DNA from: Candidatus Hodarchaeaceae archaeon
Lineage (GTDB): Archaea; Hadarchaeota; Hadarchaeia; Hadarchaeales; Hadarchaeaceae
Assembly: GCA_030018135.1 (NCBI GenBank)
Contig: JASEGJ010000001.1
Coordinates: 62,001-126,000, forward strand
Length of the DNA: 64,000 nt
Direction of reading: 5' to 3'
Of this stretch, positions 6,226 to 56,037 are shown piece after piece. The position numbers and the translations under genes were made by a program. The notes under the pieces were generated by a model, which worked only from the letters and a program-made list of their open reading frames with translations, did not search any database and had not been told where the DNA came from. Every line of letters begins with the position of its first letter. Positions within the stretch are counted from its first letter, which is position 1.

Positions 6226-9098
6226 CTAACCCTTTGCAACGCCAATGGGCTTGAGCCGAGCGACCATCCGCGCAGTGCCCGCGTCGTGGCTGACCTTCAC
6301 CACGCGATCGACATCTTTGTAAGCTTCGGGGGCCTCCTCCGCGATGACCGATATCTTCACCGCTCGCACGATGATGCCCTTGGCTTCCAAGTCGCGTTTG
6401 ACCTGCTCGCCCCAGTATTGCTTTAGCGCCGCGGTTCGACTCATGTGGCGCCCGGAGCCGTGTGCGGTCGAGGCAAAGGTCTCCTGCATGGCCTGTTCGG
6501 TGCCCACCAACACGTAGGAAGCGGTGCCCATGTCCCCCGGGATCAATACAGGCTGGCCGACATCGCGATAAATTGCCGGTATATCCGGATGTCCTGGCCC
6601 GAACGCGCGCGTCGCACCCTTGCGGTGCACGTAAACCTTCCGTAGCTCGCCGTCGACGCGGTGTTCCTCGAGCTTGGCGATATTGTGCGCCACGTCGTAA
6701 ATTATGTGCAAACCAAGGCTTCCGGCATCGCGACCGAATACCTGCTCGAAGGACTGTCTGACCCAGTGGGTTATCATCTGGCGATTGGCCCAAGCGTAGT
6801 TCGCCGCGCACGCCATCGCTGAAAAGTAAGCTTGCCCCTCGGGCGAGGTCACGGGCACATTCACCAGCTCTCGGTCTGGAAGCTCGATCTTATATTGCCT
6901 GACCACGCGCTCCATCGTCCTGAGGTAATCGGAACAGACTTGGTGGCCCAAACCTCGCGAGCCCGTATGGATCATCACCGTTACCTGTCCCTCGCGCTCT
7001 ATGCCAAACTTGCTGGCCACCTGTGGGTCGAGGATCTTATCGACCTGCTGCACCTCGAGGAAGTGATTGCCTGAGCCTAGGCTACCCAACTGTGGGAAGC
7101 CCCGTTGCTTCGCGCTCATGCTGACCTTCTTGGCGTCTGCACCCGCCATACAGCCGCCCTCCTCCAAGCGCTCGATGTCCTCCTTCCAACCGAAGCCGTT
7201 CTCGACGGCCCACCTCGCCCCATTCGTCAGGACCTCGTCCAGCTGGGCGAGTGTGAGCTTCATGTGGCCTGTGCTCCCCAAGCCTGAGGGCACGTTTCGG
7301 AAGAGTGTTTCCACTAGCTGGCGAAGCTTTGGCTGGATATCTTTTTTATCGAGGTTTGTTTGCAGCAACCTGACCCCACAATTTGAAACCACAAAACAGT
7401 CCGCAACAAAGTTGTGATGATTATCCCTAACCGTAAAGTCGTACACTTGACCATTGTGTTCGATCTCCTCCATTTTCACGATCCTATCGTAAACAATTTC
7501 CCCCTCCAAAAACTTGCTCAAAAATTCCTCAAATCTGATGAAGCCCTTTGGAGGTCTAGCCCCTTCGGTTTCCTCGTATATGCTCCTCTCGATAAACTTT
7601 TTATTGACCGGCCCCTCGTACCTCTTCATCAGTTCCTTAGCGCTGCTTTCCCTGCGATCCTCCCGTGTCTCCTTCCTTAAAAGCTCCCTTTCCTGAACAA
7701 TGGCTTGTTTTAGTCTTAGGTAGACGACCGCTGCCATAGCGAGTGCCCTTCGTTTTCTGTTGTATTCGTATCCCACCTTAGACCATAATTTGACCAAGTT
7801 TTCGGGATCTCCGTGAACTAAGAGCCTATAGATTGCCTTGTTCTCGGTCTCCTCAGCGATTGAAATAGTTGAACTCACACCGAACTCCCTAAGCATCTCC
7901 TTTAAATCCCGCAGGAATTTGAGACCGTTTCTCTCTTTCCCCTTCTCTTTGGAAAGCTTTAGCTCGGGCATGTAGAAATTGTAGCCATTCATCGTTTTCG
8001 GCTTGGACATTTCCGCTCCAAAATAGGCAGCCAAAAATAATCTTTTCAACCAGTTGGGTAATCTACGCAACCATCTCGGAACGCGGAAGTCTGCTTTTGT
8101 TTTATCTCCCTTTGGATAGCCAAGTGCCCGTAGGAGTTCGGTGAGGCTCCTAGCAGAAACTCTCAGGAAAACCTCATTTCTAACAAATCTATATCCCTTA
8201 ATTTCGTGCTCCCGTCTCCTCTCGTATATCCTGCCGGCATATCCTAGGGAATTTAGATCCGTCTTTACGTCTTCCAGATCGCTTCTTTCCCCGTAAAATA
8301 CCACGTTCTTGCCGTAGACGACCCCGTCGCCCAGCAAGTAGCTGAAGATTTTCACAAGGTAAGGCAACTTTTCATTTGTAGTAGTGAGGGGAAGCAGTCC
8401 TCGCTTTTTCAACTCTTCTCTAATTGCTTTCCCAAAGCTTTCTTCCGACGCGATCTCGAACTCCACCGGTTCCTCGTAAGCTACGCCCTCAAATGGGTGA
8501 ATCCCAACTTCCTCACCCTGGTAGAGATTCTTGGCCTCCTTCATCCCTACCCTAGTTAGGACTGGGTGATCTGGGGAGAGGGTCAACTTAAACCCTGCCG
8601 CTGTTTCAATCCTTCGGAGGGTCTGTTCATCCCTGTTGAGAGTCAGAAGAACTTCAGTGGGCCTAGCGTGGCCTTGGTTCAGTACGATTACTTGGTCACC
8701 CACGGAGACCTTTTCAATTTCAGCCCAATATCCGAGGGGGGTTAAGACCTTAGTATCCCTTGGAAGGCAGTTGATATCATAGCCCACACCGCCGGGGCTG
8801 ATGACACCCGTCTCAGCATCTGTGGCGGCTACACCCCCGATGGGGAACCCTTAGCCCGAACACGTTTGGACGTGTTCGAATAGCCCTGGTGCCCATCGGG
8901 GAGCGTTATCGAGTACTTATAGATCCCTTGCAGGAACGAAACATTCGCGGCCTGCTCCAGCGTCAGGTCCTTCCTCATCTCGTTGAGCAATTCGGCATCT
9001 GCATAAACTCGGGCTGGCGCGCGCATCCCGCGCTTGTAGTCCTGAGGGATCTCCCAGCGGACATCGTCGATTTGCTTTATTTTACCAGTCCACGACAT
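6226..9098 (-). CDS. rtcB: tRNA-splicing ligase RtcB, interrupted by a BHB intron and an intein
   Basis: RtcB joins RNA ends (2',3'-cyclic phosphate to 5'-OH) with GTP and Mn2+, using archease as cofactor; it is the archaeal ligase for spliced tRNA exons. Exon 1 (9098-8880) encodes 73 residues ending ...LPDGHQGY. The frame then breaks and resumes at 8850 with [11 protein letters not shown]. The 29 bases between (8851-8879) form a bulge-helix-bulge intron. An intein (8769-7381) lies before the catalytic Cys. The downstream extein (7380-6226, 384 residues) has GSGNHFLEV and [12 protein letters not shown] (the guanylated His). After both removals the protein is about 484 residues, normal for archaeal RtcB. 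An in-frame GTG lies at 9107; the ATG at 9098 follows GTGAG and is preferred. If the intron stays, translation stops at 8829. Confidence 0.93.
7381..8769 (-). mobile_element. LAGLIDADG-type intein in RtcB (463 residues)
   Basis: Inserted between GGVGYDIN and CGVRLL, directly before the metal-binding catalytic Cys, a known intein site in archaeal RtcB. Starts [15 protein letters not shown] (block A) with a TxxH-type block B ([11 protein letters not shown]). A central LAGLIDADG endonuclease has [12 protein letters not shown] and [11 protein letters not shown] as its two helices. It ends with block F/G ([14 protein letters not shown], then CFVVSN) followed by Cys. The penultimate residue is Ser rather than the usual His, a variation seen in some inteins. 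The reading frame is intact, so splicing and possibly homing activity may persist. Confidence 0.93.
8851..8879 (-). other. 29-nt bulge-helix-bulge intron in rtcB mRNA
   Basis: Minus strand, 5' to 3'. Exon 1 ends CCCCGATGGG, CACCAG, GGCT, AT. The intron begins T, then CGAACACG, loop TCCAAA, CGTGTTCG, GGCT, AA. Exon 2 begins GGGTTCCCCATCGGGG. The 8-bp inner helix is perfect. The central helix pairs GGCT with GGCT (two G-C, two G-U pairs). The bulges are ATT and AAG, 3 nt each, and cutting after the second base of each gives exon ends ...TAT/GGG.... This restores the RtcB motif HQGY-GFPIGG exactly. The exons add a 10-bp outer helix (CCCCGATGGG with CCCATCGGGG), joined through a small internal loop. 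The geometry equals that of the tRNA introns here. Removal by the tRNA endonuclease is inference. Confidence 0.85.
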
Positions 9099-9161: not shown

Positions 9162-9518
9162 CTAGCTTTGTAAAAGAAAACTCCCTATGGCAGCTCCGGT
9201 ATGTGGGGCTTTTGTAAGTAGTCCGGAGAGTAATAGTTTTCTTAGTTCATTTCGTCGGCTAATCCGGACCCAAGAGCGATTTTGATTATCATGCGTTGTA
9301 AGAGTACATTTGATCCCAAAACAATATCGAAGCATGTGAGCAATTTTGGCCATTGCTTGAGAGTCGTGTGACCCCAACTCAAATGATCCATATCTACCTG
9401 CTTTCACGCGGAAATACCCTCGATGTTTGAATACCTCCAATAGTACTAGCTTGGCTTTTTTGCCGTTTCCTGCTTTTAGATGCCCCCAATCTCCGTAATA
9501 CTTCCGGTATCGACTCAA
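9162..9518 (-). CDS. Small basic protein, homing-endonuclease half-domain-like
   Basis: 118 residues, rich in Lys/Arg. Its start overlaps the stop of the LAGLIDADG gene by 4 nt, so the two are co-translated. The segment AMAKIAHMLRYCFGIKCTL followed by RSWVRISRRNELRKLLL resembles the alpha-beta C-terminal half of LAGLIDADG enzymes, but no acidic LAGLIDADG helix is visible. It may be a detached DNA-binding part of the neighbouring endonuclease or an unrelated protein. I do not recognise the family with confidence. Confidence 0.5.
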   Translation of the reverse strand: MSRYRKYYGDWGHLKAGNGKKAKLVLLEVFKHRGYFRVKAGRYGSFELGSHDSQAMAKIAHMLRYCFGIKCTLTTHDNQNRSWVRISRRNELRKLLLSGLLTKAPHTGAAIGSFLLQS

Positions 9519-10090
9519 GATAGCCGCAATTTCATTTGCTTACGCTGATGATAGAAGCCGACTCTATTGTAGAAGCGCTCCAAATTTTCCCGTCCACAAA
9601 TCCTTAGCAGATGGGTCCCTCTATGGCTCCGAAATTTTAGATGCGAATAAATACCGAAATCCTTGACCAAAACTGCTCTTAGGTGACATAATCCTGCTTG
9701 GTTTACCGATTCAACAGTTACTTCTCTGTTTACGTAAGTGACCGTAGCGTCTGAATCAAAAAACGCCCTTATCCATTCCCGAATCCATCGCTGTTTTTTA
9801 AGATTAGGCATCCGCCACTTATGGGAGCCCACTGGCCCTAAAGATAAGATTGTGTGGACGACTTTCTTTTTTTGGGCCAATACTGTAAACCATGCGCCAT
9901 ACCTACCTTCCGCCTCATGGACGCTTGGGGGATAATCGAGCTTAGCAAAAGCTTCTACTATTCTGTTCAAACAAGCTCGATCATCAATCTTGATGTCCAA
10001 ACGAACTCTGGACTTCCGATAAGGATAACTGTAGATATTGGCATAACCATCGCCGCACACGTAGCCATGCAATCTGGCAAGGTACCGCAT
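9515..10090 (-). CDS. LAGLIDADG homing endonuclease, free-standing
   Basis: 191 residues with two LAGLIDADG-like helices: LHGYVCGDGY near the N-terminus and IREWIRAFFDSDATV around residues 103-117, each with the acidic catalytic position. It lies between archease and rtcB, genes that are often neighbours in archaea, and therefore looks inserted. It is not inside the intein or the 29-nt intron of rtcB, but sits next to a gene carrying both. The first ATG is used; the frame is open a little further upstream without a clear binding site. Function inferred from motifs. Confidence 0.75.
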   Translation of the reverse strand: MRYLARLHGYVCGDGYANIYSYPYRKSRVRLDIKIDDRACLNRIVEAFAKLDYPPSVHEAEGRYGAWFTVLAQKKKVVHTILSLGPVGSHKWRMPNLKKQRWIREWIRAFFDSDATVTYVNREVTVESVNQAGLCHLRAVLVKDFGIYSHLKFRSHRGTHLLRICGRENLERFYNRVGFYHQRKQMKLRLS

Positions 10091-10198: not shown

Positions 10199-10627
10199 TC
10201 AGATATCGACGACCGCTTGTACCGAACACCTGCCAGGCTCGTGCTTGATCTCCATCATGTGATAGGTCATAGCCTTGACCGCGGTACGGGTATCATGACG
10301 CTTCGGGTCGAAACGCTCCCCCCAAGCCCTGGCTTTGACCTTGAAGTTGTGGTCGCGCTGAATGAGCTCATCGACCTTAAATTTGGACATCACAAACCCC
10401 TGTGCATCATAAAAGTAGAGGAACCGCTCGAGCCAGTCATACAGCAGCGCGCCCTCGTCCTCGGCCTCGAGCTCGATGCTGACCTCCTGCAGCGGGCGTA
10501 CTTGGCTGGTGTCCACCATCACCTCGAATAGGGCCAAGGCCGCATTCTCGAGCGCCTCGGCTAGGTCTCGTCCATAAGCGCGGAAGCCTACGTCGGAGGG
10601 ATGCTCAACCCACTCGAAGCGCTTCAT
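10199..10627 (-). CDS. Archease, RtcB cofactor
   Basis: 142 residues from the ATG at 10627. Archease speeds RtcB guanylation and multiple turnover. Diagnostic pattern: MKRFEWVEHPSDVGFRAYG at the start, ALENAALALFEVMVDTS, the GERFDPKRH metal-site region, KAMTYHMMEI and a terminal VDI. An ATG at 10669 is in frame, but the TATA-like CTTTTAAAATTAAATG at 10682-10667 would place transcription start near 10650, so the internal ATG, which also matches the family N-terminus, is preferred. Same strand as rtcB, separated by the two LAGLIDADG-type genes. Confidence 0.93.
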   Translation of the reverse strand: MKRFEWVEHPSDVGFRAYGRDLAEALENAALALFEVMVDTSQVRPLQEVSIELEAEDEGALLYDWLERFLYFYDAQGFVMSKFKVDELIQRDHNFKVKARAWGERFDPKRHDTRTAVKAMTYHMMEIKHEPGRCSVQAVVDI

Positions 10628-10666
10628 TTCAACATCCGCCGAAATTTTCTTTAATCGATCAATCCA

Positions 10667-10698
10667 CATTTAATTTTAAAAGTTGAGACATTTAAATT
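10667..10698. promoter_or_regulatory. Divergent promoter, archease / PfkB kinase
   Basis: An AT-rich stretch holds TTTTAAAA-type TATA boxes on both strands (about 10675-10682). On the plus strand, initiation about 25 nt later lands at or just before the ATG at 10708, giving a leaderless or near-leaderless kinase mRNA. On the minus strand it serves archease. Based only on sequence and spacing. Confidence 0.5.
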
Positions 10699-41769: not shown

Positions 41770-43247
41770 TTACTCAGATGGATTCTCGCCCTGCTCCATC
41801 AACTGTATGTATGGCTTCAACTTCCTCTCCATCAGCCTGATTATAAAGCCCTTTATCAGAAATCCCTGCAGGGGGTTCTTTCTGAAGTGGTCGCGCGCGA
41901 GCTCGGTGACCCACCTGAAATCGTGCTTCATGCACGCCGCGAGCAACATCCAGTGCTCCGGCAGCATGTCCTTCGCCCTAAAAAATCTCTCCCCTTGCAT
42001 GGTCCCTATGGGGACAAAAAACAGCGGGACGATCAGGGATTTATATTCCCTGAGGCTTTCCACTAGCTCTATGGTTTCGACTACATCACTTGCTGTTTCG
42101 TCGGGAAACCCCATGATGAGCGTTGAACACGGGACCCAGTGGTTCTCCCTTAGCAATTTATGGGCTTCCAGCACGAGTTCCGGCCATTCCTGAGGCCTGA
42201 AGGGCGCCGCCTTGCCCCGCATGTATTTTTCCGCAATCCTCCGGGATCCCGTCTCTATCCCAACCTGCCCCGAGACCCAAGGTTTCTGCTTCGAGCCGAG
42301 ATTCAGCAGCTCGGAGAGGTCCCTTATTAGGTTCGGTTTTGCCATCGCGGAGGCAAAGGCGAAGTGGGAAAAGCTAACATCCTTCTCCAGCCTTGAGACT
42401 CCCGCGAACAATTTTCAGCACCTTCCTTTCATCGGGGATCGCACCCCTAGCCCCATACCTCAGAACATCCTCGGCATGCAGCAATACGCCGAGTCCAGCA
42501 GCGACGTTTACTTTTACTTCTTCCAATATCCTCTCGATCGGCCTACACCTGAAGTTCAATAGCGTCGGGTTGCAGAATTTACAGCCCCTCCCGCAACCCC
42601 TAGCGATCTCGACGAGGCCGTTGATCGTCGGATTCCTTATTGATGGGATTTGGTCCAGGGGAACGACTTCCCCTTGGACGATCCTCGGAAGCTCGTCGCC
42701 GTTTAATGCTTTTTCGAAAACCTTAACCGCGGTTATCTCGCCCTCCCCCACGACGACGCAATCGATGTCAAATTTCGCGATTATCCTCTCGTCTGCCAGT
42801 TGCCAAGCTCCGGGTCCTCCCACAATGACCTTTAATTTATTTTTTCTGATCACCGGATCCGTAATCAACTTCCTGAAATAAATCGCGGAGTATGTCTCCC
42901 TCCCCGTTAAATCGGCGAAAGTGGTGGATGCGGGGCCTAGCCCGAGAGGGTCATTCGTCGTAATGCCAATGGCCTTCGTTTTCCCGTTTATGACTTTATC
43001 AAGGTGCTCGGGATGCGCGACGGCAACGTCAAAGTCCTTCTCCAATAAGGCTGCCTCTATCTTTCTGGTCCCGGTCGGTGCGCAGGTCGCCTCCCCATTT
43101 TTTTTGAGGAATTGGCGGGCTGAATATGAGCTTGTAAACCCACCCGGGCACGATTTTTGGGGAACAAGCGGCGAAGCCCAAGAACTCGCTCCCGCCATAA
43201 TCAGACAGGAGAGCGCGATCTGCGGTTAAAACTATCTCGGTCACGGT
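41770..43247 (-). pseudogene. B12-binding-domain radical SAM protein, two frameshifts
   Basis: One gene spread over three frames. GTG at 43247 opens TEIVLTADRALLSDYGG and continues to about 43105; an A8 run (43098-43105) shifts the frame to KKNGEATCAPTGTRKIE. Next come VEIARGCGRGCKFC (the radical SAM CxxxCxxC) and KVLK; an A4 run (42412-42415) shifts again to LFAGVSRLEKDVSF. Removing one A at each place gives a continuous protein of about 490 residues. Cobalamin-binding-fold N-terminus, radical SAM core. Decay or sequencing error cannot be separated here. Divergent from the small regulator at 43319. Confidence 0.8.
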
Positions 43248-55940: not shown

Positions 55941-56037
55941 GCGGCCGTGGTCCAGCCTGGTTAGGGCGTTAAGCGCCGCCAAAGGACCCAGGCTCCCCAA
56001 GCCTGTGGCGCGGGTTCGAATCCCGCCGGCCGCACCA
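55941..56037 (+). tRNA. tRNA-Gly (CCC) with D-loop intron, CCA encoded
   Basis: Exons 55941-55963 and 55984-56034, then CCA. Joined: acceptor GCGGCCG/CGGCCGC, D stem GTCC/GGAC, stem CAGGC/GCCTG, loop TCCCCAA, T arm GCGGG TTCGAAT CCCGC, A73. The acceptor and D loop match archaeal tRNA-Gly and the anticodon reads CCC. Base 33 would be C instead of the near-universal U, which makes the anticodon assignment less sure. Confidence 0.82.
55964..55983 (+). other. 20-nt intron of tRNA-Gly, after base 21
   Basis: BHB: central helix TGGT/GCCA, bulges TAG and AAG, inner stem GGCG/CGCC with TTAAG loop. Same D-loop position (21/22) as in tRNA-Asp. Without removal the D stem would be imperfect and the anticodon arm displaced. 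Confidence 0.86.

Follow-up and report, generated by a model that had tools for sequence, protein, structure and literature searches.

The rtcB locus

The window, by which we mean the whole 64,000-nt stretch analysed here and to which all window coordinates refer, covers positions 62,001-126,000 of contig JASEGJ010000001.1 in a 1.1-Mb draft genome of 45 contigs (Candidatus Hodarchaeaceae archaeon, GCA_030018135.1; hereafter G000) from the Hadarchaeota, which are deep-branching archaea. RtcB, which ligates spliced RNA, is encoded at 9098-6226. Its gene is interrupted by a 29-nt insert and by a 463-aa intein, the latter absent from the preliminary description of this DNA. Its pieces, all read on the minus strand, are listed here with the neighbouring archease gene and the elements of the predicted bulge-helix-bulge (BHB) fold (basis of each assignment in brackets; a slash within a motif marks a predicted cut or an insertion point).

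10199-10669, minus strand: archease gene (RtcB activator), upstream of rtcB (PF01951, E 2e-46)
8880-9098, minus strand: rtcB exon 1, 73 codons, MSWTGK...LPDGHQGY (sequence comparison; dN far below dS)
8888-8901, minus strand: outer helix, 5' arm (10 bp + 3 bp), in coding sequence (fold; outer-helix energies)
8882-8885, minus strand: central 4-bp helix, 5' strand GGCU, exon side (fold; alignment cells 100% paired)
8879-8881, minus strand: 5' bulge A-U/U, predicted cut after the second base (fold; AU/U or AU/A across three genera)
8851-8879, minus strand: putative 29-nt BHB intron, TCGAACACGTCCAAACGTGTTCGGGCTAA (fold, shuffles, presence/absence in relatives)
8857-8878, minus strand: intron hairpin, 9 bp, CCAA loop (fold; three compensatory pairs among three genera)
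8853-8856, minus strand: central 4-bp helix, 3' strand GGCU, intron side (fold; pairing in alignment)
8850-8852, minus strand: 3' bulge A-A/G, predicted cut after the second base, opposite unpaired AG at 8887-8886 (fold)
8835-8849, minus strand: outer helix, 3' arm, in coding sequence (fold; outer-helix energies)
8770-8850, minus strand: rtcB exon 2, N-extein part, GFPIGG...VGYDIN (spliced-frame translation)
7381-8769, minus strand: intein, 463 aa, between N and C of GYDIN/CGVR (Pfam Intein_splicing and LAGLIDADG_3)
6226-7380, minus strand: rtcB exon 2, C-extein part up to the stop codon (PF01139 match, E 4e-157)

The archease gene adjoins rtcB in most relatives too. Between the two genes in the window lies a free-standing LAGLIDADG_3 endonuclease gene (9162-10090, minus strand) with a one-base frameshift near 9518-9540; in the relatives examined, no such broken gene was seen next to rtcB. 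The frameshift was considered as a BHB intron and rejected, there being no BHB fold at that place. A functional rtcB elsewhere in the genome, which the preliminary description had named as a point that would speak against splicing, was not found: the interrupted copy is the only rtcB detected in the G000 genome.

The 29-nt insert and its fold

In the unspliced frame, the 29 nt that follow HQGY throw the reading into a tail ending in a stop codon. Excision of exactly these nucleotides restores HQGY/GFPIGG, with exon 2 restarting at 8850 and the end of exon 1, CAGGGCTAT, joined to GGGTTC. Only one cut brings back the conserved peptide (a shift by one base alters TAT or makes TAA), and after removal of the insert a stop-free frame of 484 codons is obtained in G000 and in two related genomes described below (G002 and G011). 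The preliminary description had placed a break between LPDGHQGY and GFPIGG at 8851-8879 and had proposed cuts behind the second base in both bulges; its coordinates are exact, and its cuts correspond to the only register that restores the RtcB frame.

RNA folding of the G000 sequence gave the BHB motif as both the minimum free energy (MFE) structure and the centroid (z = -5.2 for 74 nt and -6.4 for 69 nt), and the central helix of GGCU paired with GGCU, as previously proposed, is present in both structures with probabilities of 0.93, 0.99, 0.99 and 0.70 for its four pairs. The intron hairpin has 9 bp rather than the 8 bp first described. Of the two 3-nt bulges, the one on the 5' side is clean, as claimed, but the one on the 3' side faces the unpaired AG and thus forms a 2x3 internal loop, which makes the motif slightly relaxed. 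The claimed 10-bp outer helix in the coding flanks is likewise present (8901-8892 paired with 8844-8835), but it does not abut the BHB motif: a short helix of 3 bp and a small loop lie between them. With the exons held fixed, 2,000,000 shuffles of the 29-nt insert yielded 260 cases of the 3-4-3 motif whose hairpin had 5 bp or more, and a single case with 9 bp or more, in line with the earlier statement that a chance origin is very unlikely. A group I or group II self-splicing intron was rejected as an explanation, because the catalytic core of such introns takes up well over 100 nt and the insert has 29.

Relatives with and without the insert

We searched 61 genomes for rtcB and inspected the insertion site. 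Two genomes of other genera in the family of G000 carry an insert at the identical nucleotide position, one of 30 nt in G002 (ACGATACATGCTTGAGCATGTTCGGGCTAA) and one of 29 nt in G011 (TCGGGCACGTCCAATCGTTTCCGGGCTAA), both with AU/N, GGCU paired with GGCU and AA/G as in G000; in all three the BHB motif is both MFE and centroid, with a common MFE shape. The site is empty in about 15 Hadarchaeota, comprising every other readable rtcB of the phylum, where TAY is followed directly by GGN; the preliminary description had expected relatives of both kinds. In G006 and G015, which share the genus of G011, rtcB is truncated at contig ends. A search for the insert pattern in 28 Hadarchaeota genomes returned only G000, G002 and G011, once per genome. 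Three hairpin pairs, all within the intron hairpin, are changed on both sides among the three genera, and 94% of the alignment cells are paired (23-59% when the partners are slid). This level of covariation was reached in 15 of 500 shuffles and comes from three sequences only; taken alone, it is modest evidence for a conserved structure.

The three intron-bearing genes do not form a clade in the protein tree, in which G000 has as its sister G005 (support 98/94), whose site is empty, and the patchy distribution would require several losses or transfers. Slippage deletion between the GGGCTA repeats was rejected as the source of the empty sites, since it would leave TAA. No further BHB insert in rtcB was found in 46 genomes of two other archaeal phyla, in 33 further archaeal genomes or among the 80 best GTDB loci, where the sole intron locus is the record of G002 itself; inteins were seen in these searches. 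Plasmids gave no match to the insertion site. In a near-complete archaeal genome (G087), a methanogen-like rtcB (L193, G087:C1:747800-749800) has one extra T in GGATTTCGAC, a single-base frameshift and not an intron.

The comparison among genera bears on three readings in which the RNA would stay uncut. Translational bypass of the phage T4 gene 60 type, with the ribosome skipping the hairpin, would draw on the stable hairpin in the gap and on the GGGCTA present at both of its ends, yet take-off and landing codons must match in such a hop, and in all three genera TAT (Tyr) before the gap stands against TAA before GGG; a hop from GGC to GGC would next read TAA, and the 3-4-3 bulge geometry and the reinforced outer helix would go unexplained, so that we consider bypass highly improbable. 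Synthesis of RtcB in two independent polypeptide chains seems even harder to credit: reading on from exon 1 into its tail gives about 90 open codons, but the break falls within the HQGYGFPIGG motif, the read-through tails are wholly different (a tail of 16 residues versus TIHA and a stop), and the next listed start for exon 2 drops about 20 conserved residues. A mobile repeat in the form of a DNA hairpin (MITE, REP or integron-like), inserted and never spliced out, would account for a short inverted repeat of patchy presence among relatives; the insert, in contrast, occurs in one copy in the genome, even at 3 mismatches, is confined to one site in three genera and belongs to a structure that reaches into exons tuned for pairing, which leaves this origin with hardly any probability.

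Selection on the exons and the outer helix

For exon 1, dN was 0.06-0.13 and dS about 1 or more; between the intron-bearing genera, both exons gave a dN of 0.06-0.17 with a dS of about 1, higher or saturated. These values indicate that the exons are under purifying selection and that the gene is alive. The outer-helix energies of the three intron-bearing genes (-26.4, -21.3 and -19.1 kcal/mol) rank first to third among 21 rtcB genes, the 18 others reaching -18.6 kcal/mol at best and the sister G005 -14.8; the chance of such a ranking is 1 in 1330 assuming independence, and the genes are not fully independent.

An assembly error or a dying gene, with the 29 nt either mis-assembled or a disabling pseudogene insertion, was weighed against these data. 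The intron-bearing genomes are metagenome-assembled genomes (MAGs) or drafts, and the window has other frame breaks, namely a +1 in a run of eight A near 43095 and the broken homing-endonuclease gene; against this stand the homologous inserts at the same base in three genera with a conserved, covarying structure, the purifying selection on exons whose dS is near saturation, and the lack of any other rtcB in a genome rich in intron-bearing tRNAs. We therefore regard this explanation as largely refuted and very unlikely.

A survey for other split genes set about 450 kb of G000 against relatives' sequence totalling about 590 kb, and 236 reference ORFs matched well; within this coverage, rtcB was the sole intron-like split. 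Two other splits flagged in G000 were rejected as introns, one being a tRNA overlap and one a +1 in a run of eight A. At 43095-43106 of the window (minus strand), a gene that we take from its sequence to be B12/radical-SAM-like is one base out of frame at an eight-A run, by a sequencing error or a real frameshift.

The splicing endonuclease and tRNA introns

A single EndA gene, whose product measures about 180 aa and contains both domains, is present in Hadarchaeota. EndA of G000 (179 aa) aligns end to end with the homotetrameric Methanocaldococcus jannaschii enzyme 1A79 and is without the extra loop residues present in the Aeropyrum chain, which we read as the crenarchaeal loop; judged by its length and the full-length match to 1A79, it appears to be of the homotetramer type. 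EndA was not found in the incomplete bins G002 and G011. Homotetrameric EndA is described as strict for the canonical BHB (PMC4090602, PMC6379350), and relaxed introns as well as the known mRNA intron are tied to hetero-oligomeric EndA (PMC4090602, PMC6379350, PMC2738675). Measured against the strict canonical hBHBh' motif, the rtcB intron is clean on its 5' side and has the 2x3 internal loop on its 3' side, the EndA type being a prediction.

G000 has many intron-bearing tRNAs (e.g., 55941-56034 in the window, L214; also L207, L209, L217, L221 and L224), among them several with mini-introns of about 20-35 nt in the D-loop; some of these mini-introns adopt a 4-bp helix, a 3-nt bulge and a hairpin like those of the rtcB intron. 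A working RtcB should therefore be needed in this organism. Since so many tRNA introns occur together with an EndA of homotetramer size, either this enzyme would accept more than is expected of its type or a divergent partner has escaped detection.

A second insert in rtcB and the intein sites

The rtcB of G011 has a second insert of 31 nt at GYDI-N/C (L021, G011:C92), 2 nt upstream of GYDIN/C, which is the intein position in the rtcB of the window. Among the registers tested, only one has a canonical 3-4-3 motif (ACAU paired with GUGU, 5-bp inner stem), and the same register also restores D-I-N-C. The motif lies 1.1 kcal/mol above the MFE, and 568 of 1,000,000 shuffles were equally good across five registers. 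From its fold and frame, this insert is a probable second BHB intron in rtcB.

RtcB inteins in one other archaeal phylum, whose genomes look to us like those of Methanocaldococcus relatives, occupy the sites GYGF/C, GYDIN/C and VMVH/C, and the first intron sits 6 nt from the GYGF/C site. One RtcB of another archaeal phylum (G083, L195) has inteins at GYGF/C, GYDIN/C and VMVH/C within a frame of 1932 aa. Inteins related to the 463-aa intein of the window were found in G025 (35% identity) and G026 (65%). Conserved sites are favoured by inteins and group I introns, probably via homing endonucleases (PMC2814812). A connection among the mini-introns, the intein sites and the broken LAGLIDADG gene is speculative.

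Discussion

The insert and its boundaries, the fold, the covariation among three genera, the empty sites, the selection on the exons, the presence of EndA and the tRNA introns together form the basis on which we interpret the 29 nt as very probably a genuine tRNA-type BHB intron in the rtcB pre-mRNA, to be cut by EndA and sealed by RtcB; the splicing itself we infer from sequence. Hadarchaeota with high expression have been reported in Illumina and Nanopore RNA data (PMC12918454). The points against a BHB intron are the relaxed 3' bulge, the homotetramer-sized EndA, the failure to find EndA in the incomplete G002 and G011 bins, the MAG and draft assemblies, the frameshifts in the window and the patchy distribution. 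In the proposed mechanism, the exon flanks and the intron of the pre-mRNA would form two 3-nt bulges around the 4-bp helix, and the single EndA of the cell would cut directly behind 8880 and 8851, each the second base of its bulge. The resulting 3'-phosphate and 5'-OH ends would be sealed by RtcB activated by archease, and the spliced frame would be translated, after which the intein would excise itself from the RtcB protein. If RtcB seals its own message, RtcB production would depend on earlier RtcB, a self-dependence that could act as a feedback on the level of the ligase.

Short hairpin-type introns in the coding region of an mRNA are also found in the eukaryotic XBP1 and HAC1, where a tRNA ligase joins the exons (RtcB in the case of XBP1). 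Unlike the rtcB intron, these are cut by IRE1 in loops and not by EndA at a BHB, they are of unrelated origin, and their splicing, which is treated in PMC4090602, is stress-regulated. The introns of archaeal tRNAs, including the D-loop mini-introns of G000, are closer in their size, 4-bp central helix, 3-nt bulge and hairpin core, but the rtcB intron lies in an mRNA and has coding sequence in place of a tRNA stem as its outer helix. In Haloferax volcanii, EndA likewise cuts an mRNA at a BHB (HVO_1309; PMC7714728); that site, however, is in the 5' UTR, outside the coding sequence, and restores no reading frame.

Up to 2020, BHB introns within coding mRNA had been recorded in a single archaeal gene, cbf5 (PMC7714728). 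We found no report of a BHB intron in rtcB or in Hadarchaeota in a literature search that covered subscription papers in part, an unseen report thus being possible; this agrees with the preliminary description, which called such introns few, named cbf5 as the classical case and knew of none in rtcB. Like the rtcB intron, the cbf5 pre-mRNA intron of Desulfurococcales and Sulfolobales is cut after the second base of the bulge, shows patchy gain and loss, has a slightly unconventional motif and keeps its exon-intron structure conserved around an intron core that varies (Watanabe 2002; Yokobori 2009, PMC2738675). The rtcB intron differs in its host gene, which is the ligase itself, in its phylum, in its length of only 29-31 nt and in the two inserts of one relative (G011); furthermore, cbf5 splicing is tied to a hetero-oligomeric EndA, whereas the EndA of the rtcB-intron host is single and homotetramer-sized. 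We examined cbf5 as a positive-control host and found no interruption in the 26 Hadarchaeota in which Cbf5 was found. We liken the rtcB intron to that of cbf5 in its mode of working and do not assign it to the cbf5 intron family by descent: it sits in rtcB, and cbf5 is uninterrupted in Hadarchaeota.

A wider conjecture, namely that rtcB of Hadarchaeota hosts a small, mobile or recurrent family of BHB mini-introns at the conserved DNA sites of RtcB inteins, removed by a homotetrameric EndA and making the RNA ligase self-dependent for its own mRNA in an autoregulatory loop, is offered tentatively and seems to us unlikely as a whole. The intron itself, if spliced as proposed, would make rtcB the second host gene of BHB introns in archaeal coding mRNA, in a new phylum and with another type of enzyme, and would suggest that annotation misses introns in archaeal mRNA, such genes being cut short by gene callers. 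The link between mRNA introns and hetero-oligomeric EndA would be called into question because Hadarchaeota appear to have one EndA of the homotetramer type. With a host that is the ligase sealing its own message, the loop of self-dependence would be open to direct testing, and the close genera with and without the intron, together with the second insert at the intein site, would provide a natural system for the gain, loss and movement of such introns.
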